Of a stretch of 21,747 bases of DNA, positions 7,597 through 19,516 are shown piece by piece. The stretch's first letter is position 1. Every line of letters starts with the position of its first letter. The notes under the pieces are model-generated. The model had not been told where the DNA came from and searched no databases. It worked only from the letters and a program-made list of their open reading frames with translations. Source of the stretch: a virus; the IMG/VR virus record IMGVR_UViG_3300020473_000141, positions 1 through 21,747 of that record; one strand, 5' to 3'. A program made the position numbers and the translations under genes.

Positions 7597-8008
7597 ACTA
7601 AGGACTAATCATAATGTACGAGTAGTCACTCTCGACACCTCTGAGAGGGTTCTAACTATCTTTGGTGAAATACGCACTGAGGATGAAGAACAAAGGGTTA
7701 TTGGTTACAGGCTTCTCTATCCTTATGCCTTATCGTTAGGTGAGGTTAATGATGATGGAACAATTCCTATTCGTTATGAGAGGTGGTGTCCATATAGTCC
7801 TGTGGAAGAACACAAAATCGGTGGAGAACATATCATTAGTGTTGTCCTACCCGATAATGGTATACTAGATAATTATGTAAATAGACTGAAACAAGTAGGT
7901 CTAACAGAAGAACAAATCTTTTTTGAGGTAAATAATGGAGGAGAATCAAGTCCTGAAGATGATGCTACTGAAGAACCAGTGGATACTGGCGAAGGTGGAG
8001 GAGATTGA
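7580..8008 (+). CDS. Sm-like phage protein, paralogue 2, acidic tail
   Basis: 142 residues. It shares with paralogue 1 the T-ER(V)-T first strands, a central LLYPYALSL, and the WCPYS block at about 69-73. The C-terminal ~35 residues diverge into a low-complexity acidic/glycine tail (NNGGESSPEDDATEEPVDTG and on). The ATG has GGAG upstream (AAAGGAGATACATG). The acidic tail overlaps the third member in another frame for 74 nt. A C-terminal acidic tail on an RNA-binding-type barrel is reminiscent of Hfq, but this is only an analogy. Confidence 0.75.
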   Translation: MTEQIELRTNHNVRVVTLDTSERVLTIFGEIRTEDEEQRVIGYRLLYPYALSLGEVNDDGTIPIRYERWCPYSPVEEHKIGGEHIISVVLPDNGILDNYVNRLKQVGLTEEQIFFEVNNGGESSPEDDATEEPVDTGEGGGD

Positions 8009-8207
8009 AGGAGCACAATTTGGTGATCCTGATTGCATTCTAGTAGAACCAATGTTATGGGATGGTGGACAGTTAAAAGACTGGCTACCATTTGCGGATG
8101 AAAAGGAGACAATTGTCCGTTCTTCTGATATAATAACATTTGTAGAACCTGGTAAGGAGACCCTTTCCAAGTACTACAGTTACACACCAGAAGTGTTGAG
8201 TGAATGA
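7935..8207 (+). CDS. Sm-like phage protein, paralogue 3 (divergent)
   Basis: 90 residues. MLLKNQWILAKVEEIE begins the barrel, then DPDCILVEPMLW, LKDWLPFAD, and IVRSSDIITFVEPGKETLSKYY. These line up with the strand order of the two upstream paralogues, though with low identity. ATG 7935 has a good site (GAGG at 7925-7928, 6 nt spacer). The in-frame ATG at 7962 would start at the conserved domain. The first 74 nt overlap the acidic tail of paralogue 2, so that tail is under double coding. The stop overlaps the polymerase start (ATGA). Confidence 0.7.
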   Translation: MEENQVLKMMLLKNQWILAKVEEIEGAQFGDPDCILVEPMLWDGGQLKDWLPFADEKETIVRSSDIITFVEPGKETLSKYYSYTPEVLSE

Positions 8208-10690
8208 AGTTCTACACAAGCGTTGAACAAGCTGGCAATCGTTTGCTAGTGCGTGGTTATGATAATGGTAACAGATATAGCGTGAGGGTTCCTTTCAACC
8301 CCACGCTATATTTGCCTTCTAAGAATTATTCTGAGTGGAGGACATTAGATAATAAACCAGTAGAACCACATCAGTTTGGTTCTATAACTGAAGCAAGAGA
8401 ATTTGTAAAACAGTATAAGGAAGTTCCTAATTTTGAGATACATGGAAACACAAGGTTCCTGTATCAGTATATGGCAACGGAACATCCAGAGGAGCATATT
8501 AAGTTTGATACCTCAAAGATTCGTGTCTTTACAATTGACATTGAGACAGCAGCAGAGAATGGATTTCCTGATATAGAATCAGCAGACCAAGAGATATTAG
8601 CGATCAGTATTAAGGATTCCTTTACTGGTCGCATTACTGTCTGGGGTGCTAGACCTTTTGACAATAAAGATTCTGAAGTTGATTACATGCACTTCAGATC
8701 AGAAGAAGGAATGCTTAATGCCTTTCTAGGTTATTGGCAGGACAATTATCCTGACGTAGTTACAGGATGGAATGTACAGTTATTCGATATGCCGTACATT
8801 GCTAATCGTGTAGAAAGAATATTGGGAGAGAAGGCAGTTAAACTTCTTTCTCCATGGAGATTAGTATCTAAGAGAGAGATCTTTATTAAAGGTCGTAAGC
8901 AATGGGCGGTAGATACACTTGGTATATCTACATTAGATTATCTTGATTTGTATAGGAAGTTTACTTATCAGAATCAAGAGAGTTATAGACTTGATCACAT
9001 TTGTATGGTTGAACTTGGAGCGAGAAAGTTAGATCACTCTGAGTTTGATACATTCAAAGAGTTCTATGAGAATGACTGGCAGAAATTTATTGAGTACAAC
9101 ATCCATGACGTTAGGTTGGTGGATAAACTTGATGATAAGATGAAGTTACTTGACCTAGCATTTACTATGGCATATGATGCTAAGGTTAATTATGAAGATG
9201 TGTTTAGTCAGGTTCGTATGTGGGATAACTACATATACCACGAACTAACTAAACGTAAGATAGCAATTCCTCCTAAGAAGGAAGCAACGAAAGACTCACA
9301 GTATGCAGGAGCTTATGTCAAGGAACCGAAACCAGGACGCTATGATTGGGTTGTTAATTTTGATCTCAATAGCCTCTATCCTCATCTTATTATGCAATAC
9401 AATATCTCACCAGAGACCCTCTGGGAGACTAGACACAGTAGTGCCAATGTTGAAGGGATCTTAAAGAAAGAGGTAGAGATTGATGGGACTTATGCAGTTT
9501 GTGCGAATGGAGCTCAATATCGGAAGGATGTACGAGGATTCCTTCCTGAACTTATGGATAAGATGTATGAAGAGAGGGTCATCTTTAAGAAGAAGATGCT
9601 TAAAGCAAAGCAGGATTACGAAAAGAAACCTTCTAATGAACTCATTAAAGAGATCGCTAGATGTAACAACATCCAAATGGCAAAGAAGATATCTCTTAAT
9701 AGTGCTTATGGTGCTATCGGTAATGAGCACTTCAGGTATTATAGGTTAGCAAATGCTGAGGCTATTACGTTATCAGGTCAAGTCTCAATTAGATGGATTG
9801 AGAACAAGATGAATGGTTATCTAAATAGATTGCTATCTACAGATAAGGTAGATTATGTCATTGCATCTGACACTGACTCAATATATCTTAATCTCGGACC
9901 TGTTGTTGATAAATTTTTTGGTAATAAGTCTAGTGATAAGATTCGGATCGTGGAGCTACTTGACAAGATCTGCAAAGATAAGTTGGAACCGTTCATTGAT
10001 GCCTCGTATCAGGAGCTTGCAACGTATGTATCGGCGTATGATCAAAAAATGATCATGAAGCGAGAGAACATTGCTGATCGTGGAATATGGACTGCCAAGA
10101 AGAGATACATATTAAATGTATGGGACTCAGAAGGAGTCAGGTATAAAGAACCCAAGATGAAAATTATGGGGTTGGAAACAGCGAGGTCATCAACACCTCA
10201 ATACTTTAGGGATAAATTATATGCAGCTTTCAAGATCATTATCGGCAAAACAAATGATGAACTTATCTCTTTTATCAATGATGTCAGAACAGAAACCAGA
10301 GAACGACCTTATGAGGAAGTCGCATTCCCACGAGGCGTTAACAACCTTGAAAAGTATCGCCACAGAACTAACATCTATACAGAAAGGACACCGATCCATG
10401 TAAGAGGTGCTTTACTATACAACCATTATGTTAAAAAACATAAGATAGAAAATAAACATCCCCTGATACAGGAGGGTGAGAAGATTAAGTTTATGTACCT
10501 TAAGACACCTAATCCAATACATGAAGATGTAATTAGTTTCTTTGGGGATCTCCCTGAAGAGTTTGGTCTTGAGAAGTATGTTGACTATAAAACACAATTT
10601 GAGAAGAGTTTCTTGAATCCATTAATAAATGTGCTAGACTGTGTAGGTTGGACGCACGAGAAAAAAATCACACTAGGGAGTTTCTTTTAA
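8204..10690 (+). CDS. 43: DNA polymerase gp43 (family B)
   Basis: 828 residues versus 898 in T4. The 3'-5' exonuclease has Exo I DIE at 112-114, Exo II WN..LFD at 189-195, and Exo III YNIHD at 298-302. The polymerase has motif A DLNSLYP at 387-393, motif B KKISLNSAYG at 494-503, and motif C DTDS at 556-559. The C-terminus LGSFF fits the short clamp-binding peptide that docks on gp45. All catalytic aspartates are present, so proofreading and synthesis should both work. The start overlaps the Sm-like paralogue by 4 nt and the stop overlaps the next ATG by 1 nt. Confidence 0.97.
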   Translation: MKFYTSVEQAGNRLLVRGYDNGNRYSVRVPFNPTLYLPSKNYSEWRTLDNKPVEPHQFGSITEAREFVKQYKEVPNFEIHGNTRFLYQYMATEHPEEHIKFDTSKIRVFTIDIETAAENGFPDIESADQEILAISIKDSFTGRITVWGARPFDNKDSEVDYMHFRSEEGMLNAFLGYWQDNYPDVVTGWNVQLFDMPYIANRVERILGEKAVKLLSPWRLVSKREIFIKGRKQWAVDTLGISTLDYLDLYRKFTYQNQESYRLDHICMVELGARKLDHSEFDTFKEFYENDWQKFIEYNIHDVRLVDKLDDKMKLLDLAFTMAYDAKVNYEDVFSQVRMWDNYIYHELTKRKIAIPPKKEATKDSQYAGAYVKEPKPGRYDWVVNFDLNSLYPHLIMQYNISPETLWETRHSSANVEGILKKEVEIDGTYAVCANGAQYRKDVRGFLPELMDKMYEERVIFKKKMLKAKQDYEKKPSNELIKEIARCNNIQMAKKISLNSAYGAIGNEHFRYYRLANAEAITLSGQVSIRWIENKMNGYLNRLLSTDKVDYVIASDTDSIYLNLGPVVDKFFGNKSSDKIRIVELLDKICKDKLEPFIDASYQELATYVSAYDQKMIMKRENIADRGIWTAKKRYILNVWDSEGVRYKEPKMKIMGLETARSSTPQYFRDKLYAAFKIIIGKTNDELISFINDVRTETRERPYEEVAFPRGVNNLEKYRHRTNIYTERTPIHVRGALLYNHYVKKHKIENKHPLIQEGEKIKFMYLKTPNPIHEDVISFFGDLPEEFGLEKYVDYKTQFEKSFLNPLINVLDCVGWTHEKKITLGSFF

Positions 10691-10869
10691 TGAGTAAAAC
10701 AGTTTGGACTGTCACTTATCAAGATGCTCAAGTTGAAGCACTTGAAGCAGAACAGATAAGGGTTTTTGAAGAAAAGATAACAGCAGAAGCTTATGCTAAG
10801 CTCTTGTCGAAAGACCATGACTATGTTAGAATGTACGAAAGTGAGGTAAATGAATGGCGACGTTCTTAG
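10690..10869 (+). CDS. Small hypothetical protein between gp43 and UvsX, 59 aa
   Basis: Starts at ATG 10690 in a TAATG overlap with gp43. An upstream in-frame ATG at 10648 lies within gp43 and is less likely. The product is one largely helical charged chain ([20 protein letters not shown], then [18 protein letters not shown]), without a membrane segment. Similar small genes commonly sit between 43 and uvsX in cyanophages. No function is known. It overlaps uvsX by 16 nt. Confidence 0.75.
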
Positions 10870-11870
10870 ATAATGTAATTAAAGATAGTGGAAATGAATT
10901 TGCTAGCCTCGTCAGCGATGGAGTCGCTGCTGGAGATACATCCAGTTTTGTTGATACTGGTAGCTATATTTTCAACGCTGTCGTTAGTGGTTCTCTATTC
11001 GGGGGAATCCCTTCTAATAAAGTCACAGCACTCGCAGGAGAATCCTCAACAGGAAAGACTTTCTTTGCACTCAGTGTTGTACGTAACTTTCTTGATAACC
11101 ATAGCAACGGTGGGGTTATTTATTTTGAGTCTGAATCTGCTCTCAGCAAGGACATCATTGAGTCTAGGGGAATTGATTCCAGTCGTATGGTAATTTTCCC
11201 TGTTGCTACGATAGAAGAGTTCAGGACTCAAGCAACGAGGATCGTTGACAAATATATGAAAGAACCAAAGGAGCAGCGTCAACCATTGATGTTTGTTCTT
11301 GACAGTCTTGGTATGTTGAGTACATCAAAGGAGATGGAAGACATCTCTAATGATAAACAGGTCAGAGATATGACCAAATCACAGTTGATCAAGGGTGCTT
11401 TTAGAGTACTGACCTTGAAACTAGGACAGGCAGGGATACCCATGCTTGTCACTAATCACACATATGATGTGATTGGAAGCTATGTGCCAGCTAAAGAAAT
11501 GGGCGGTGGTAGTGGACTAAAGTATGCTGCATCGACTATAATATACCTATCCAAATCGAAAGAGAAGGATGGTACTGAACTGGTGGGTAACATCATTAAG
11601 TGCGAAGCAAAAAAATCTAGATTTACACAGGAGGGTTCTAAAGTTGCTACCAGATTATACTTTGACGAACGTGGACTTGACCGCTATTATGGACTCTTGG
11701 AGCTTGGTGAGAAGTACGGAGTATTCAATAGGGTGGGCAACCGTATCAAAATTGGTGGTGCTAATGTTTACCCTAAATCTATACTCTCTGATCCTACAAA
11801 ATACTTCACAGAGGAAGTGATGGCAAAACTAGAAGAAGCAGCACGAACGGAATATAGTTATGGCAACTGA
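10854..11870 (+). CDS. uvsX: RecA-like recombinase UvsX
   Basis: 338 residues (T4: 391). Walker A is GESSTGKT at 62-69, the residue pair after the first strand is YFESESAL, and the second nucleotide motif is [11 protein letters not shown]. The last shows the RecA-fold Walker B, and LVTNHTYDV is the DNA-binding-side segment. UvsX forms filaments on ssDNA and performs strand exchange for recombination-dependent replication and repair. The ATG has GAGG with a 7-nt spacer. No UvsY is encoded next to it. It overlaps the helicase gene by 11 nt, keeping the T4 order uvsX-41 with no uvsW or endonuclease between. Confidence 0.96.
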
Positions 11871-13236
11871 ACGTATTGAACTAACAATACTAAGAAACTT
11901 ATTATTCACAGAGGAGTACTACCGTAAAGTAGTACCCTTTCTTAAAGCTGATTACTTTCAAGAACATGATGAAAAAATAATCTTTGAAGAGATTCAAGAT
12001 TTTTCTGGAAAGTATGACAAGGTTCCAACACAAGAAGTTCTTTTAATAAATCTACAAAATCGTACAGATCTTACAGAAGAATCCTTCAACAACGCTGTTG
12101 CAACTGTAAAGAGTTTAACTGATGAATGGGTTGACTTTGATTGGGTCTTAGATGCCACAGAAAAGTGGTGTCAGGATCGTGCTATATACTTGGCGTTGAT
12201 GCAATCAATAAAGATTGCTGACGGTGGAGACAGCAAGTTGGACAAGGGTGCTATTCCTAGCATCCTTCAGGATGCTTTGGCTGTCTCTTTTGATGAACAC
12301 ATCGGACATGATTACATTGAACAATCAAAAGATAGATATGAATTTTACCACAAGGTCGAGGAAAAAATTCCGTTTGATCTGGAAAAGTTTAACTATATTA
12401 CGAAAGGTGGGATCCCTAACAAGACTCTTAATATCGCTCTTGCTGGTACAGGTGTCGGGAAAAGTTTATTCATGTGCCATATGGCTAGCTCCGTCTTGTT
12501 GCAAGGACGGAACGTATTATACATTACATGCGAAATGGCAGAGGAGAAAATTGCAGAGCGAATTGATGCAAATCTTCTCAATGTAAATATAAGGGACATT
12601 CCAGAACTTCCAGAAGTTATATACAACTCCAAAGTCCAAGAGATTACTCGTAAGACTCAGGGTAAGTTGATTATAAAAGAGTACCCTACAGCATCTGCAC
12701 ATGCAGGTCATTTTAAGGCACTCTTATCTGATCTATCTTTAAAGAAAAGTTTCAAACCCGATATAATCTTTGTAGATTACTTAAATATATGTGCAAGCGT
12801 GAGGTATAAAGGTGCTATTGTTAACTCGTATACGTATGTTAAGGCGATTGCGGAGGAGCTTCGCGGTCTTGCTGTGGAACACAACTTACCTATTGTTTCA
12901 GCTACTCAAACTACTAGGAGTGGTTATGGCAATAGTGATCCTGACCTTACCGATACTTCTGAGTCTTTTGGTCTCCCTGCCACTGCTGATCTTATGTTTG
13001 CCCTTATCAGTACTGAGGAACTTGAACAACAAGGTAGGATTATGGTTAAACAACTCAAAAACAGGTACAACGACCCGACCTCATCTAGAAAGTTTATGGT
13101 AGGTATTGACAGATCTAAGATGAGGTTGTATGATGTTGCTGATAGTACATCTGTTATTGATGTAGAAGAAGAGGAGATGCCTCAGTTCTCTGAGACACAA
13201 AACCGATTATCTAAATTTGCTGAATGGAACGTATAA
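11860..13236 (+). CDS. 41: Replicative DNA helicase gp41 (DnaB-like)
   Basis: 458 residues (T4: 475). The C-terminal RecA-like core has Walker A AGTGVGKS at 195-202 and Walker [13 protein letters not shown] glutamine/threonine sensor [10 protein letters not shown] follows, then the arginine-finger region [11 protein letters not shown]. The N-terminal ~150 residues form the helical collar that binds primase. gp41 is the hexameric 5'-3' helicase of the primosome with gp61. In T4 gene 61 is close by; here the primase gene is at the other end of a 7.8-kb insert. The tail ([15 protein letters not shown]) is acidic. Confidence 0.95.
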
Positions 13237-13863: not shown

Positions 13864-13866
13864 TTG

Positions 13867-15573: not shown

Positions 15574-16802
15574 TGTCTAAGAATACTCACCTAGAACACT
15601 TAGAAGATAGCATCTTAATTGATGGTACAGCAGGTGCTAAGGATGCTTTTGTATTCTTAGATGATCTTGCACGATCATTTAGTGGTAATACTAGCAGTAA
15701 CTTTACTGTTACTACAAAATGGGATGGTGCTCCTGCTATATTCTGTGGATTATATCCAGGAACAAATTCTTTTTTTGTTGGTACTAAGTCAGTCTTTAAT
15801 AAGGATGCAAAGATTAACTATACTAATGAAGATATTGAACGTAATCATGGACATGCTCCAGGACTAGTAAAGAAATTAAAAGATGCTTTAAAGTATCTAC
15901 CTAAACTAGGTATTACTGGTGTTGCACAGGGAGATTTGTTATTCACTGATGATAAGGGAACAGATATAATAAATGGTGTCAGTAATATAACTTTCAAACC
16001 TAATACTATTACATATTCTGTTGCTAAAGGAGATGCTTTATACAACAAAGTTAAGGCAGCAAAGATAGGAGTAGTATTTCATACATTTTATGAAGGACGT
16101 AGTATTGAATTTTTAAGTGCTAAGTTTGGATTTGATATATCTAAATTAAAAGAGCATGATGATATATTAGTTCTCAGTGCAGAGACAGGAGAACTTGGTA
16201 ACGATACTTTATTAACACAAGGAGAGAAGAATATTTTAATTGGGTTAAAGCAAAAGAGTACTAGACTTGTTAATAGTGCTTCTCCATTTTTAGATATTGT
16301 TTCTGAACAGATTAAAGCAAACGATCAATTAACTGTTGGACCTAAGTTGAAGGTATTTTTTAATAAGTATATTAGAGATGCAGTTGCTGTTCCTGCTGGT
16401 AATTTATTTGTAAAACAATTTACAACTTATTGGGAGGGAGAACTAGGTAAGGCAGTTGGTAAACTAAAGACACCTAAAGCAAAGGCAGCAAAGCTTCAGA
16501 AGATGTACGATGGACTTGATATAATTGAAAAGAATAAATCATCCTTAGCTAGTGCTGTTGATCTTTATAAAATCATACAAAATTCTAAGTCAATTTTTAT
16601 TAAGAAATTAGAGAAAGGAGAAAGATTTGGTACGTATCTCAGAACTGAGGATGGACTTGAGATGACATCTCCAGAAGGATATGTTATAATAAGGGACGGT
16701 ACACACGCTCGTAAATTAGTAGAACGTGCTAGATTTAGTGCTGCTAACTTCAAGAAGGATACTCTTCCAACTAAGAAATGGGTGGAAGGTGATGCAAAGT
16801 AA
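15573..16802 (+). CDS. KxDG nucleotidyltransferase-like (RNA/DNA ligase-like) protein, 409 aa
   Basis: The N-terminal domain shows the covalent nucleotidyltransferase signature. Motif I is TTKWDGAPAIF (K49-W-D-G52, the lysine that would take AMP). A motif III-like strand is GVAQGDLLF near 116-124 and a IIIa-like one is GVVFHTFYEG near 166-175. At the C-terminus a motif IV/V pair appears as SPEGYVIIRDG (E368-G369) and THARKLVERARF (K381). Between IIIa and IV lie about 190 residues, mostly helical, far more than in most ligases. Cyanophage homologues are annotated only as conserved hypothetical (DUF6267-like, from memory). The overlaps (1 nt before, 11 nt after) tie it to both neighbours. Activity and substrate are unproven. 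Confidence 0.8.
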   Translation: MSKNTHLEHLEDSILIDGTAGAKDAFVFLDDLARSFSGNTSSNFTVTTKWDGAPAIFCGLYPGTNSFFVGTKSVFNKDAKINYTNEDIERNHGHAPGLVKKLKDALKYLPKLGITGVAQGDLLFTDDKGTDIINGVSNITFKPNTITYSVAKGDALYNKVKAAKIGVVFHTFYEGRSIEFLSAKFGFDISKLKEHDDILVLSAETGELGNDTLLTQGEKNILIGLKQKSTRLVNSASPFLDIVSEQIKANDQLTVGPKLKVFFNKYIRDAVAVPAGNLFVKQFTTYWEGELGKAVGKLKTPKAKAAKLQKMYDGLDIIEKNKSSLASAVDLYKIIQNSKSIFIKKLEKGERFGTYLRTEDGLEMTSPEGYVIIRDGTHARKLVERARFSAANFKKDTLPTKKWVEGDAK

Positions 16803-17388
16803 ACGAATAGTGTTTACATTTGGTAGATTTAATCCACCAACTACAGGACACTTGAAACTTATAGAAGCAGTGGCTAAAGAGGCAGGACAAAAAGATGATT
16901 ATCGTATTGTTCCTAGCAGATCATTCAAAGCTGATAAGAACCCATTGAAAATTGATATTAAACTTGCATGGATGAAGAAGATGTTTCCTAAACATGCAGA
17001 TAATATTATAAGTACTCCAGATCTTAATGTTATTATTAAGGTCATGCAATCTTTTCAGGGAATACCTCCTGATGGTTATACTGATGTGTGTATGATTGTT
17101 GGATCTGATAGAGTTCAGGACTTTACTACCTTATTAAACAAGTATAATAGAGATCCTAATGATCCAGATAAGACAGTAGAATATGCTTTTAAAAGTATAG
17201 AGGTTAAGTCAGCAGGAGAACGAGATCCTGATAATGATAATGATGTTTCTGGTATGTCTGCTAGTAAAATGAGAGGATATGCTAAAGCTGGTAAGTGGGG
17301 AGAATTTCAAAATGCTCTTACTGGATTACTAAGTGCAGATGATGCAGCAAAACTTATGAGAGATGTTCGTAAAGGTCAAGGTTTATGA
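16792..17388 (+). CDS. Cytidylyltransferase-fold (NMNAT-like) adenylyltransferase
   Basis: 198 residues. The nucleotide-binding start is VFTFGRFNPPTTGHLKLI, where TTGH (17-20) replaces the usual HxGH. The middle carries IVGSDR (102-107), and GMSASKMR (154-161) matches the ISSTxIR-type motif that binds the triphosphate. These are hallmarks of NMN/nicotinate-mononucleotide, FMN and pantetheine-phosphate adenylyltransferases. Similar cyanophage proteins are labelled cytidylyltransferase or nicotinamide-nucleotide adenylyltransferase. NAD-type synthesis is possible; the exact substrate cannot be read off. ATG 16792 has GGTGGA 5 nt upstream; an in-frame ATG at 16726 lies inside the previous gene and is unlikely. 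Confidence 0.85.
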   Translation: MQSKRIVFTFGRFNPPTTGHLKLIEAVAKEAGQKDDYRIVPSRSFKADKNPLKIDIKLAWMKKMFPKHADNIISTPDLNVIIKVMQSFQGIPPDGYTDVCMIVGSDRVQDFTTLLNKYNRDPNDPDKTVEYAFKSIEVKSAGERDPDNDNDVSGMSASKMRGYAKAGKWGEFQNALTGLLSADDAAKLMRDVRKGQGL

Positions 17389-17597
17389 AAGACTTTAAGA
17401 AACTACGTGAACAAGCACTACGACAGCACTACCGTAAGAAGGAAGTGTTTGTTGAGGGTGACTATGTAATGAATGCCAACACAGGACAGAAAGGTAAGAT
17501 TCATAGGTCAGGTGTGAACTATGTTATCTGTGTCACTGAGAGTGGTGAGATGTTTCGTGCATGGGTAAAGGATATTAGAGCTATAAATAGAAATTGA
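17385..17597 (+). CDS. Small KOW-like beta protein, 70 aa
   Basis: ATGA overlap with the adenylyltransferase. A basic N-terminal helix (FKKLREQALRQHYRKKE) precedes a compact beta unit: VEGDYVMNANTGQKGKIHRSGVNYVICVTESG (in pieces: GDYV, TGQKGKI, NYVICV), then MFRAWVKDI. The GDYV..TGQ.GKI arrangement resembles KOW/SH3-like barrels, which often bind RNA or ribosomal proteins. Similar small domains occur in T4-like cyanophages; the role is unknown. A T4-late-type box sits in its last codons. Confidence 0.72.
   Translation: MKDFKKLREQALRQHYRKKEVFVEGDYVMNANTGQKGKIHRSGVNYVICVTESGEMFRAWVKDIRAINRN
17582..17589 (+). promoter_or_regulatory. Possible late promoter box TATAAATA
   Basis: Exact match to the T4 late -10 element TATAAATA, inside the end of the upstream gene. 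Transcription would begin near 17595, almost at the ATG 17597, leaving no ribosome binding site for it unless a later in-frame ATG (17609 or 17615) is used. This makes it weaker than the two boxes downstream. Confidence 0.35.
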
Positions 17598-18007
17598 TGA
17601 GTATAAAAATGACAATGAAGTACCAAGATCCTGTTAATACTGTCCAGTTTGAGGATGAGTATGCAAAGAATCTCATGAAGATGTATGAAAATTGGATGGA
17701 TGGAGACACTTTTCAAGGAACTGAAATGCCATCTGCTGATCAATTAGCAGAAGAACCTTTCTCTGGAATGGATCCTCAGTCTAATGGTGCAGAAATAGAA
17801 GATACTACAAAGAAAAAGAAAAAAATAGAGAAAGGAACTTATCTTGGTAAGAATGAAACTGCCCCTAGTTATGATTCAGATGGATATGCAGAGGAAGTTG
17901 AAGAAAGAGAAGAGTATGAATTAAATGGTGAGACATATGTTATAGAAAAGATTAAAGGAAAAGGTTGGCAGAAAGGATATAAAAAGAGTAAGAGTAAGGG
18001 TTATTAG
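17597..18007 (+). CDS. Hypothetical protein, 136 aa, acidic core and lysine-rich tail
   Basis: ATG 17597 overlaps the previous stop (TGATG). The N-terminal half is helical (DEYAKNLMKMYENWMDGDTF). A lysine run (TTKKKKKIEKGTYL) lies near 70-83, an acidic stretch (EEVEEREEYELNGETYVIE) at about 99-117, and the tail is strongly basic (GKGWQKGYKKSKSKGY). Low-complexity charged blocks suggest a disordered or DNA-binding-type protein, possibly packaged in the head. I do not recognise the family. Confidence 0.72.
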   Translation: MSIKMTMKYQDPVNTVQFEDEYAKNLMKMYENWMDGDTFQGTEMPSADQLAEEPFSGMDPQSNGAEIEDTTKKKKKIEKGTYLGKNETAPSYDSDGYAEEVEEREEYELNGETYVIEKIKGKGWQKGYKKSKSKGY

Positions 18008-18008
18008 A

Positions 18009-18137
18009 ATGAAATCCTACTCTCAATTCCTAGAAGAATCTAAAAAGAAGAAAGAGAAACGTAAACCTACGGTTGAAGTTATGCCTACCATTAAAGATGG
18101 AGAGAAAGGTATGACTACTAAACCAGATAATAGCTAA
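18009..18137 (+). CDS. 42-aa peptide with capsid-targeting-like N-terminus
   Basis: Starts MKSYSQFLEES, close to the N-terminal capsid-targeting sequence of T4 internal proteins (MKTYQEFIAEA). There, the prohead protease gp21 cuts after a hydrophobic-x-E. Here LEE/S would be the site at residues 8-11. The rest is basic and polar (KKKKEKRKPTVEV, then GEKGMTTKPDNS). It could be a small internal head protein or a leftover of one. It lies 1 nt after the preceding stop and overlaps the next gene by 1 nt (TAATG). Confidence 0.6.
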   Translation: MKSYSQFLEESKKKKEKRKPTVEVMPTIKDGEKGMTTKPDNS

Positions 18138-18433
18138 TGAAGGAACCGTTACACAGATTACCACTTGATGAGTGGTTTGACGATGTACCACACCCTTACG
18201 ATGAATGGCCTATGGCAACAGATAAAACCCCAGTTGAAAGACTACACGATGATATGAGAAAAGAATACGAAAATCCTAGACCAGAAGAAGATATAGCAGA
18301 TGATATAACCATGCATGAGAAGATGTATCGGATTGCAACATCAAGATATAATCCCTTTTCAGTAGGAGGATCAGAGAATTGTCACTCGGATGTTGAGTGT
18401 AATATTGGAGGGTCTGAGAACTTACATAAATAA
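18137..18433 (+). CDS. Hypothetical acidic protein, 98 aa
   Basis: TAATG overlap at the start. The sequence is rich in D, E, P and W (LPLDEWFDDVPHPYDEW), then has a charged stretch, DITMHEKMYRIATSRYNPF, and a tail with two copies of GGSEN (the second followed by LHK). No membrane segment or known motif. Family not recognised. The end overlaps the direct repeats described separately, and a late box sits across its last codons. Confidence 0.68.
   Translation: MKEPLHRLPLDEWFDDVPHPYDEWPMATDKTPVERLHDDMRKEYENPRPEEDIADDITMHEKMYRIATSRYNPFSVGGSENCHSDVECNIGGSENLHK
18365..18420 (+). repeat. Two 14-nt direct repeats flanking a small hairpin
   Basis: GGAGGATCAGAGAA (18365-18378) and GGAGGGTCTGAGAA (18407-18420) are identical at 12 of 14 bases and lie exactly 42 nt apart, so both encode GGSEN in frame. 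Between them CACTC (18383-18387) and GAGTG (18395-18399) can pair around a seven-base loop. The block ends four bases before the late box at 18425. It may be a local duplication in the coding sequence or a binding site. Confidence 0.5.
18425..18432 (+). promoter_or_regulatory. Likely late promoter box CATAAATA
   Basis: CATAAATA differs from the T4 late consensus TATAAATA only at the first base, a position that is variable in cyanophages. Transcription would start near 18438, ahead of the ATG at 18455. No clear Shine-Dalgarno is seen in that leader. The position across a gene end, before a gene of a probable late cluster, supports it. Confidence 0.5.
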
Positions 18434-18646: not shown

Positions 18647-18654
18647 TATAAATA
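18647..18654 (+). promoter_or_regulatory. Late promoter TATAAATA for the structural gene
   Basis: Exact T4 late -10 consensus in a true intergenic gap (18644-18688). Transcription would start near 18660, leaving a ~28-nt leader with AGGA at 18678-18681 and a 7-nt spacer to ATG 18689. T4-like viruses read such promoters with gp55 sigma and gp33 together with the gp45 clamp. Best supported of the late boxes here. Confidence 0.75.
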
Positions 18655-18688: not shown

Positions 18689-19516
18689 ATGGCTGTTTTT
18701 GGAACTACGGATGCTGCTGCATTCTCAAACACAGTTGCTGTCACTCAAAACGACGCAACAGTAACAAAGAACGCTGCCGACACAGTAGTTGGTGGTGATG
18801 TACTTGAAATTGATGGTGTTAATTACATCGTTAAGACTATAACAAGTACAACAAGTATTGAATTACACAAAGTATATGCAGGAGCTACTAATAATACTCT
18901 TGCTGCTGCTAAAGTAATCAAGCGTACACCTCCAAGAGCAGTTGCGGAATTCGTTATACTGGGTGGTGATAGTAACAGTTATGACCTTGTGTTTGCTGAC
19001 GCAACAGAAGGTTCTCTTGCTGAGAACAAATCACGTGGTATAAACGGACCTGGTTGGTGGCAGTATCGTTCCTTTACGGATCATGCTGGTAACACACGCC
19101 ATAAAGCTGAATGTATAGCAGCAGTCACAGTTGCATCTAGTGTATCTGGTGACCTTGCTGATGATACTATCGCTGCTGATGTTGCATCTGCTGTAACTAT
19201 CACTGGACAACCTGGTAATTCTTCTTCTAGTTCTGGTGCTGGAACATTCGCAGTTACTACAAGTACAACTGGTACACCTGGAACACTTGCTTATGTTTGG
19301 CAACGTCAGAAGGCAGGTACTAAGCGTTGGGTTAACATCACTGCTAACCTTGACACAGGTATCACATACGCTGATTTCGCTACTGCAACTCTTGCATACA
19401 GTGGACTTGCTAATGATACATTAGATGGTCAAAACTATAGAGTTAAGATCACATCTGCTAATGGTACAGAAGAAGTTATCTCTAATGGAGCAGGAACCTT
19501 AACATTCTCATCATAA
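18689..19516 (+). CDS. Probable virion structural protein with Ig-like C-terminal domain
   Basis: 275 residues, rich in Ala, Thr, Gly and Ser, low in Lys. N-terminal ~90 residues are a beta domain (VTQNDATVTKNAADTVVGG, ILGGDSNSYDLVFADATEG at 91-109). Residues about 113-143 hold the compact GPGWWQYRSFTDHAG. A Ser/Gly linker (GNSSSSSGAG) near 181 leads to a domain ending in LAYVWQRQKAGTKRWVNI and QNYRVKITSANG with ISNGAG, an Ig-like fold with its W and Y core. Ig-like domains are common on phage surfaces (T4 Hoc, tail fibres). With its own late promoter it is likely a virion or surface protein; the specific role is unknown. Confidence 0.82.
   Translation: MAVFGTTDAAAFSNTVAVTQNDATVTKNAADTVVGGDVLEIDGVNYIVKTITSTTSIELHKVYAGATNNTLAAAKVIKRTPPRAVAEFVILGGDSNSYDLVFADATEGSLAENKSRGINGPGWWQYRSFTDHAGNTRHKAECIAAVTVASSVSGDLADDTIAADVASAVTITGQPGNSSSSSGAGTFAVTTSTTGTPGTLAYVWQRQKAGTKRWVNITANLDTGITYADFATATLAYSGLANDTLDGQNYRVKITSANGTEEVISNGAGTLTFSS

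Follow-up and report, generated by a model that had tools for sequence, protein, structure and literature searches.

The window, the whole 21,747-nucleotide stretch of DNA analysed here, is a 21.7-kb virus record from a T4-like cyanophage, with its best relatives among the Synechococcus myoviruses of the Kyanoviridae. Among its genes is one for a 42-aa peptide, matched by phrog_12887 (E 2.4e-11), that consists only of a leader, a linker, and a core, the minimal form of the VEVMP family (Table 1). The peptide has no Pfam match, DUF3008 included. AlphaFold predicts a single helix over residues 4-11 and an unstructured remainder with modest confidence (mean pLDDT 67.6; 78 over leader residues 1-10). 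The gene begins 2 bases 3' of the stop codon that ends the 137-aa ORF before it, and its TAA shares sequence with the ATG of the next ORF; overlaps of start and preceding stop occur in many relatives of the peptide gene.

Table 1. Features of the peptide gene and its neighbourhood in the window.
Feature	Position	Strand	Basis or remark
Cytidylyltransferase/NMNAT-like	16792..17388	+	Leader-bearing virion homologues in S-CREM2, S-SZBM1, S-SCSM1
70-aa KOW-like ORF, start MKDFKKLREQ	17385..17597	+	KOW by eye; fused to cytidylyltransferase in the proteome phages
T4-type late promoter TATAAATA, 5' of the two-gene unit	17582..17589	+	Motif; in 52/53 distinct orthologues
Upstream 137-aa ORF, phrog_4359	17594..18007	+	Segments homologous to virion proteins S-SZBM1 gp139 and S-SCSM1 ORF92
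42-aa leader peptide gene, minimal VEVMP family member	18009..18137	+	ATG start; MKSYSQFLEESKKKKEKRKPTVEVMPTIKDGEKGMTTKPDNS
Codons 1-10, capsid-targeting-like leader MKSYSQFLEE	18009..18038	+	T4 comparison; AlphaFold helix
Predicted gp21-type cut Glu10/Ser11 (L-E-E/S)	18036..18041	+	Motif match to L/I-x-E; putative
Lys-rich linker SKKKKEKRKPT	18039..18071	+	Sequence
Conserved core VEVMPTIKDGEKGMTTKPDN	18072..18131	+	Alignment; pN/pS 0.25-0.26
98-aa ORF	18137..18433	+	ATG overlaps the TAA of the peptide gene
Second late promoter TATAAATA, before the head-protein gene	18647..18654	+	Motif
Head protein, phrog_613	18689..19516	+	Virion-protein homologue: S-SZBM1 gp136

The 137-aa ORF at 17594 and the peptide gene likely share one late transcript. 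The sole orthologue without the late promoter motif has 193 bp stored upstream. Across the orthologue loci, TATAAATA occurs at a density of 0.211 per kb on the coding strand versus 0.002 per kb on the other strand, and NATAAATA has been described as a cyanophage late promoter (PMC2984593). Late expression of the peptide gene is predicted from this motif. In addition to the virion-protein homologues listed in Table 1, the gene at 13864 (phrog_1462) has a homologue, S-SCSM1 ORF90, that is a virion protein. Packaging of the window peptide into the head is supported indirectly, as a prediction from the late promoter and from this syntenic block of virion-protein homologues.

Upstream, a DUF6267 protein (PF19782; 15573-16802) adjoins the cytidylyltransferase, and phrog_455 is one profile that includes DUF6267, the cytidylyltransferase, and the KOW-like domain. 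The KOW-like ORF (17385-17597) has no Pfam match, and its relatives are annotated as “ribonucleotide reductase alpha subunit” or NrdB, a name that looks wrong because in phage cytidylyltransferases it is the C-terminal domain that the ORF matches. Downstream, the 98-aa ORF has few relatives, which are found in uncultured marine single-virus records and in Prochlorococcus phage P-SSM7, there among tail genes.

Conservation of the VEVMP family

The open reading frame at 18009-18137 is a genuine gene, conserved among T4-like cyanophages (Kyanoviridae). A family gene is present at 79 of 88 loci (the window, 7 named phages, and 80 IMG/VR loci); a script specifying a K/R2 start and the VEVMP core identified 78, and L041 was added on inspection. 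The nine loci without the gene (L004, L009, L010, L024, L029, L038, L039, L046, and L080) end before its slot, as they extend less than about 1.5 kb 5' of the anchor gene. The leader is conserved at these 79 loci, so the objection from non-conservation raised in the preliminary description fails. Searches by tblastn with the peptide matched only its C-terminal or core half, in 24 phage records; the whole gene is revealed by synteny.

The 53 distinct family proteins are 42 to 188 aa long. Their constant parts are a leader of the form MK(S/T)(F/Y)xx(F/L)xx(E/D), a Lys-rich linker, and a core, VEVMPTxxDGxKGM, while the C-terminal modules are variable. A DUF3008 module (PF11450) lies behind the core in orthologues such as L030, L048, and L059; the domain scores above cut-off in L048, L030, and S-SCSM1 ORF93, and below it in L050. 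ORF93 (L159:29627-29836), a 69-aa virion protein that is a DUF3008 module, occupies the peptide’s slot in S-SCSM1. It shares this domain with the C-termini of several orthologues, but it differs from the family in having neither the N-terminal leader nor the VEVMP core, and in carrying a leader-like TFKEFLEYIE at its C-terminus. Equal scores are reached at 2 of 862 S-SCSM1 C-termini, ORF93 itself being one, a frequency at which chance is possible. A C-terminal leader-like motif, [TSN]FK[QDE]FM (e.g., LLTFKQFMSKL), is found in 22 of the 53 family proteins, as if it were a second targeting copy.

Over the 53 proteins, pN/pS is 0.31 for the leader and 0.25-0.26 for the core, values that indicate purifying selection. 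Such conservation of the core is more in keeping with a constant role than with that of an arms-race inhibitor. Selection on the core (pN/pS 0.25) and the fixed slot would also suit a prohead-core assembly factor, which the leader would bring to the scaffold, and which would aid head assembly or protease regulation before being degraded and expelled, never injected. Such a factor is somewhat unlikely: the C-terminal modules vary freely, unlike those of a dedicated assembly part, and S-SCSM1 ORF93, with one such module, stays in mature virions.

The leader and the T4 capsid-targeting sequence

In the T4 capsid-targeting sequence (CTS), ten residues suffice; as described in PMC9026906, residues 4 and 7 serve targeting and residues 8 and 10 processing, Asp at position 10 stops processing but not targeting, and the gp21 cleavage motif is L/I-x-E. 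The window leader (Y4, F7, L8, E10) is identical to MKTYQEFIAE of T4 IPII and IPIII at positions 1, 2, 4, 7, and 10 and has Leu instead of Ile at position 8. Across the 53 family proteins, position 4 is F in 40, Y in 12, and L in 1; position 7 is F in 40 and L in 13; position 8 is R in 30, K in 8, L in 6, C in 5, and I in 4; and position 10 is E in 39, D in 12, G in 1, and Q in 1. The T4 targeting positions are thus kept in all 53, and the processing positions mainly in the window’s own clade.

A motif this short could resemble a targeting sequence by coincidence, in which case the product would be a small late protein of the ordinary kind, active in the cell, with another use for its amphipathic N-terminus. 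The strict leader pattern is rare at internal Met codons (4 of 5,647 over seven cyanophage genomes), which suggests more than chance, but it also occurs at just 4 of 2,406 early ATGs, with no significant enrichment at gene starts genome-wide (Fisher p 0.25), so the pattern alone proves little; a looser pattern at gene starts gives p 0.014. Simple-pattern surveys, in which gene-start counts hardly exceed internal methionines, were set aside as evidence and replaced by a matrix and a hidden Markov model (HMM) with controls. The KOW-like ORF was rejected as a second tagged protein: it scores well, yet by eye its leader aligns with the linker that precedes the KOW-like domain in the fused cytidylyltransferases and may not be a tag, and such sequences can arise untagged, which favours coincidence. 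In four close relatives scanned whole (ACG-2014e, S-RSM4, S-H9-1, and S-WAM2), a credible leader occurs only on the VEVMP and KOW-like genes; the leader is therefore no broadly used tag in these four phages.

The matrix and HMM tests speak against coincidence. Among 236 ATG starts of the window, that of the peptide scores highest with the leader matrix (24.7; 23.5 leave-one-out). A matrix trained on 30 distinct cyanophage leaders only, and scanned over 1,740 T4 ATG starts, ranks gp61.1 first, IPIII second, IPII third, and IPI fifth; T4 Alt, a CTS protein, ranks only 134, a point against head targeting. A matrix of the 22 leaders with R, K, or C at position 8 ranks gp61.1, IPI, IPII, and IPIII first to fourth. 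Of 2,000 column-permuted matrices, 2 do as well as the actual one by rank sum; with position 2 fixed, 10 of 2,000 do. The family HMM, run over all T4 ORFs, places IPII, IPIII, and IPI as its top three, with weak E values (0.24, 0.56, and 2.5), and an HMM of the core without the leader retrieves no T4 internal protein. Codons 4 and 7, moreover, retain F/Y or F/L despite synonymous change, which also tells against chance resemblance. Coincidence is improbable overall, and the leader is best described as a T4-type capsid-targeting-like sequence, for which head targeting is well supported. The likeness to the T4 capsid-targeting leader proposed in the preliminary description is borne out, in that cyanophage leaders retrieve the T4 internal proteins blind and occur on virion proteins in S-CREM2.

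The first-ranked T4 start belongs to gp61.1, a 54-aa protein (phrog_1823; L158:4967-5131, T4 NC_000866 18966-19130). Like the window peptide, it is tiny, begins with this type of leader (MKTFKEFIKE), has a Lys-rich tail, and is encoded between genes 41 and 61. It differs in its middle, which copies the cleavage region of gp23 (46% over 37 aa); the cyanophage core does not. T4 gp61.1 in effect joins a leader to a duplicate of the cleavage-site region of the major capsid protein (gp23). Capsid-protein copies near the primase gene, both in virions, are also found in S-SCSM1 (ORF97, 60% over 30 aa) and S-CREM2 (gp160, 75% over 24 aa). The VEVMP core was considered as a capsid-protein copy of the same kind and rejected, as the core-only HMM gave no convincing match in the nine sequence sets scanned, the window and eight genomes. 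Two points about gp61.1 count in favour of a prohead assembly factor: this best-scoring T4 start falls in the gp41-gp61 interval equivalent to the slot of the peptide gene, and the copied capsid-protein cleavage region suggests a part in assembly more than one in the host.

Leaders in published virion proteomes

Leader scores were compared with the virion proteomes of three cyanophages. Mass spectrometry detected 52 virion proteins in S-CREM2 (PMC10665884, Table 3). Scores were obtained for 218 of its 219 CDS (gp85 was left out; the record’s 221 features include 2 tRNAs), and the best six are all virion proteins (hypergeometric 1.3e-4): gp6 SAM hydrolase, gp154 cytidylyltransferase, gp14 kinase, gp13, gp155, and gp136. 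This result weighs against chance resemblance. Between virion and non-virion CDS of S-CREM2 there is no overall shift in leader score (Mann-Whitney p 0.67). At L095:3837-5081, 10579-12846, and 7704-10313, S-CREM2 encodes a virion SAM lyase and a virion kinase with the leader, and the virion Cas9 (gp12), which falls outside the 15 best scores.

For S-SZBM1, Table 1 of PMC9146016 gives 30 virion proteins. The two best leader scores, gp191 and gp192, are absent from the detected proteins of that table; the third-best, the prohead protease, was detected. In S-SCSM1, whose virion proteins are labelled in the sequence record (PMC9602691), two starts stand out of 5,107, those of ORF91, an NMNAT that is a virion protein, and ORF30, a leader gene with no virion label in the record. 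These three leader genes undetected in virions (gp191, gp192, and ORF30) count against head targeting and in favour of coincidence; the leader on the virion cytidylyltransferases of all three phages argues against coincidence. The latter begin MKNFSSFLTEA in S-CREM2, MRFRQFIIEA in S-SZBM1 (gp140, one residue shorter), and MKSFLQFLKEA in S-SCSM1, and the cytidylyltransferase cluster T4-GC190 has also been reported in S-SM1 virions (PMC3037559). Pooled over the three phages, 5 of 8 high-scoring genes encode virion proteins (expected 1.5-1.6; p about 0.009), with a threshold chosen post hoc, S-SZBM1 gp140 excluded, and an assumed gene total for S-SCSM1 (240, 260, and 286 were tried). The leader thus predicts virion proteins well in one proteome, and the picture is mixed in the other two.

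The leader-bearing virion enzymes (cytidylyltransferase/NMNAT, SAM lyase, and APH-like kinase) share the N-terminal leader of the window peptide; in contrast to the peptide, they are large and folded, and they are not homologous to it beyond the leader. The cyanophage virion papers leave undecided whether enzymes such as cytidylyltransferase are truly carried or are contamination (PMC10665884, PMC9602691), and the leader on them favours true packaging. A further family, phrog_1742 (135 phage records), comprises proteins of about 105 aa that are encoded beside tail or terminase genes and begin with a near-perfect leader, MK(S/T)FK(S/Q)F(L/M)SES; its members at L089:32312-32629 (S-SZBM1 gp191) and S-SCSM1 44215-44535 are undetected in the two virion proteomes.

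Proposed packaging, cleavage, and fate of the peptide

The 42-aa product is probably a late-expressed, head-targeted small internal peptide. In its first ten residues it resembles T4 IPI, IPII, and IPIII in K2, an aromatic residue at 4, F7, a hydrophobic residue at 8, and E10 (IPII and IPIII). It further resembles them in being small and basic and, by prediction, late, with an adjacent L/I-x-E site. Unlike the T4 genes, the cyanophage gene occupies one conserved gp41-gp61 slot rather than the ip loci, and its family has modular C-termini. The core-only HMM found no homology between the mature part and that of IPI, IPII, or IPIII, an absence that weighs little because the T-even internal proteins are highly diverse apart from their shared CTS (as reviewed in PMC3012670). 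At the level of predicted features, the peptide qualifies as a T4-type CTS-tagged internal protein with a mature part unrelated to IPI-III.

In the proposed working, the leader helix would bring the nascent peptide to the prohead scaffold core and dock through residues 4 and 7. In the window’s clade, the prohead protease may then clip after Glu10. Leader cleavage by this protease is plausible: the hydrophobic-x-E site named in the preliminary description stands in the window, where L-E-E/S fits the gp21 motif, but does not extend to the family at large, in which position 8 is R, K, or C in 43 of 53 proteins and position 10 is Asp in 12 of 53. The residue at position 8 makes processing doubtful in most relatives. 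At the equivalent cleavage place, the relatives’ major capsid proteins read M-I/M-N-E/A-S, the last slash marking the cut. Retention of positions 4 and 7 with variation at 8 and 10 would be what the T4 work predicts for leaders that are targeted and not always clipped.

The 32-aa remainder SKKKKEKRKPTVEVMPTIKDGEKGMTTKPDNS, basic (10 K/R versus 5 D/E) and predicted to be unstructured, would be packed with the DNA, its lysines neutralising charge. By solid-state NMR of T4, as reviewed in PMC3012670, lysines of the internal proteins touch DNA phosphates, a picture that the Lys-rich peptide fits. The 32-aa peptide may leave with the genome, and it might then act as an injected host-takeover or anti-defence effector, like T4 IPI against GmrSD. 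The IPI precedent is real (PMC3012670), and the S-CREM2 leader is found on a virion SAM lyase/hydrolase and a kinase, enzymes of the type that an effector set would include. Nevertheless, an effector role is very improbable: the mature form, predicted to be unstructured, contains no domain, and its core is conserved across the examined loci, whereas the T-even internal proteins are highly diverse outside the CTS (PMC3012670). The suggestion that the peptide blocks host defences found no backing, as no target, similarity, context, or defence link emerged. On the preferred reading, that of a packaged internal peptide, leader and core would together form a packaging cassette, with C-terminal modules gained or lost in many relatives.

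T4-type head-targeting leaders have been described for T-even phages, and listings of open-licence PMC papers showed no prior application of them to cyanophages. It is conceivable, and tentatively proposed here, that the T4 CTS is an old, portable import signal common to T4 and the Kyanoviridae, with separable targeting (4/7) and processing (8/10) positions, and that the VEVMP gene is a packaging cassette with swappable end modules. If so, cyanophage cargo would be partly readable from N-termini, including the SAM lyase, the kinase, the cytidylyltransferase, and the peptide described here. For T4 itself, the clearest new prediction is gp61.1, with the best leader score in that phage and its gp23-like middle. 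The relatives of T4 may share the leader as a portable tag, one from which small cargo of the virion would become predictable at the sequence level.
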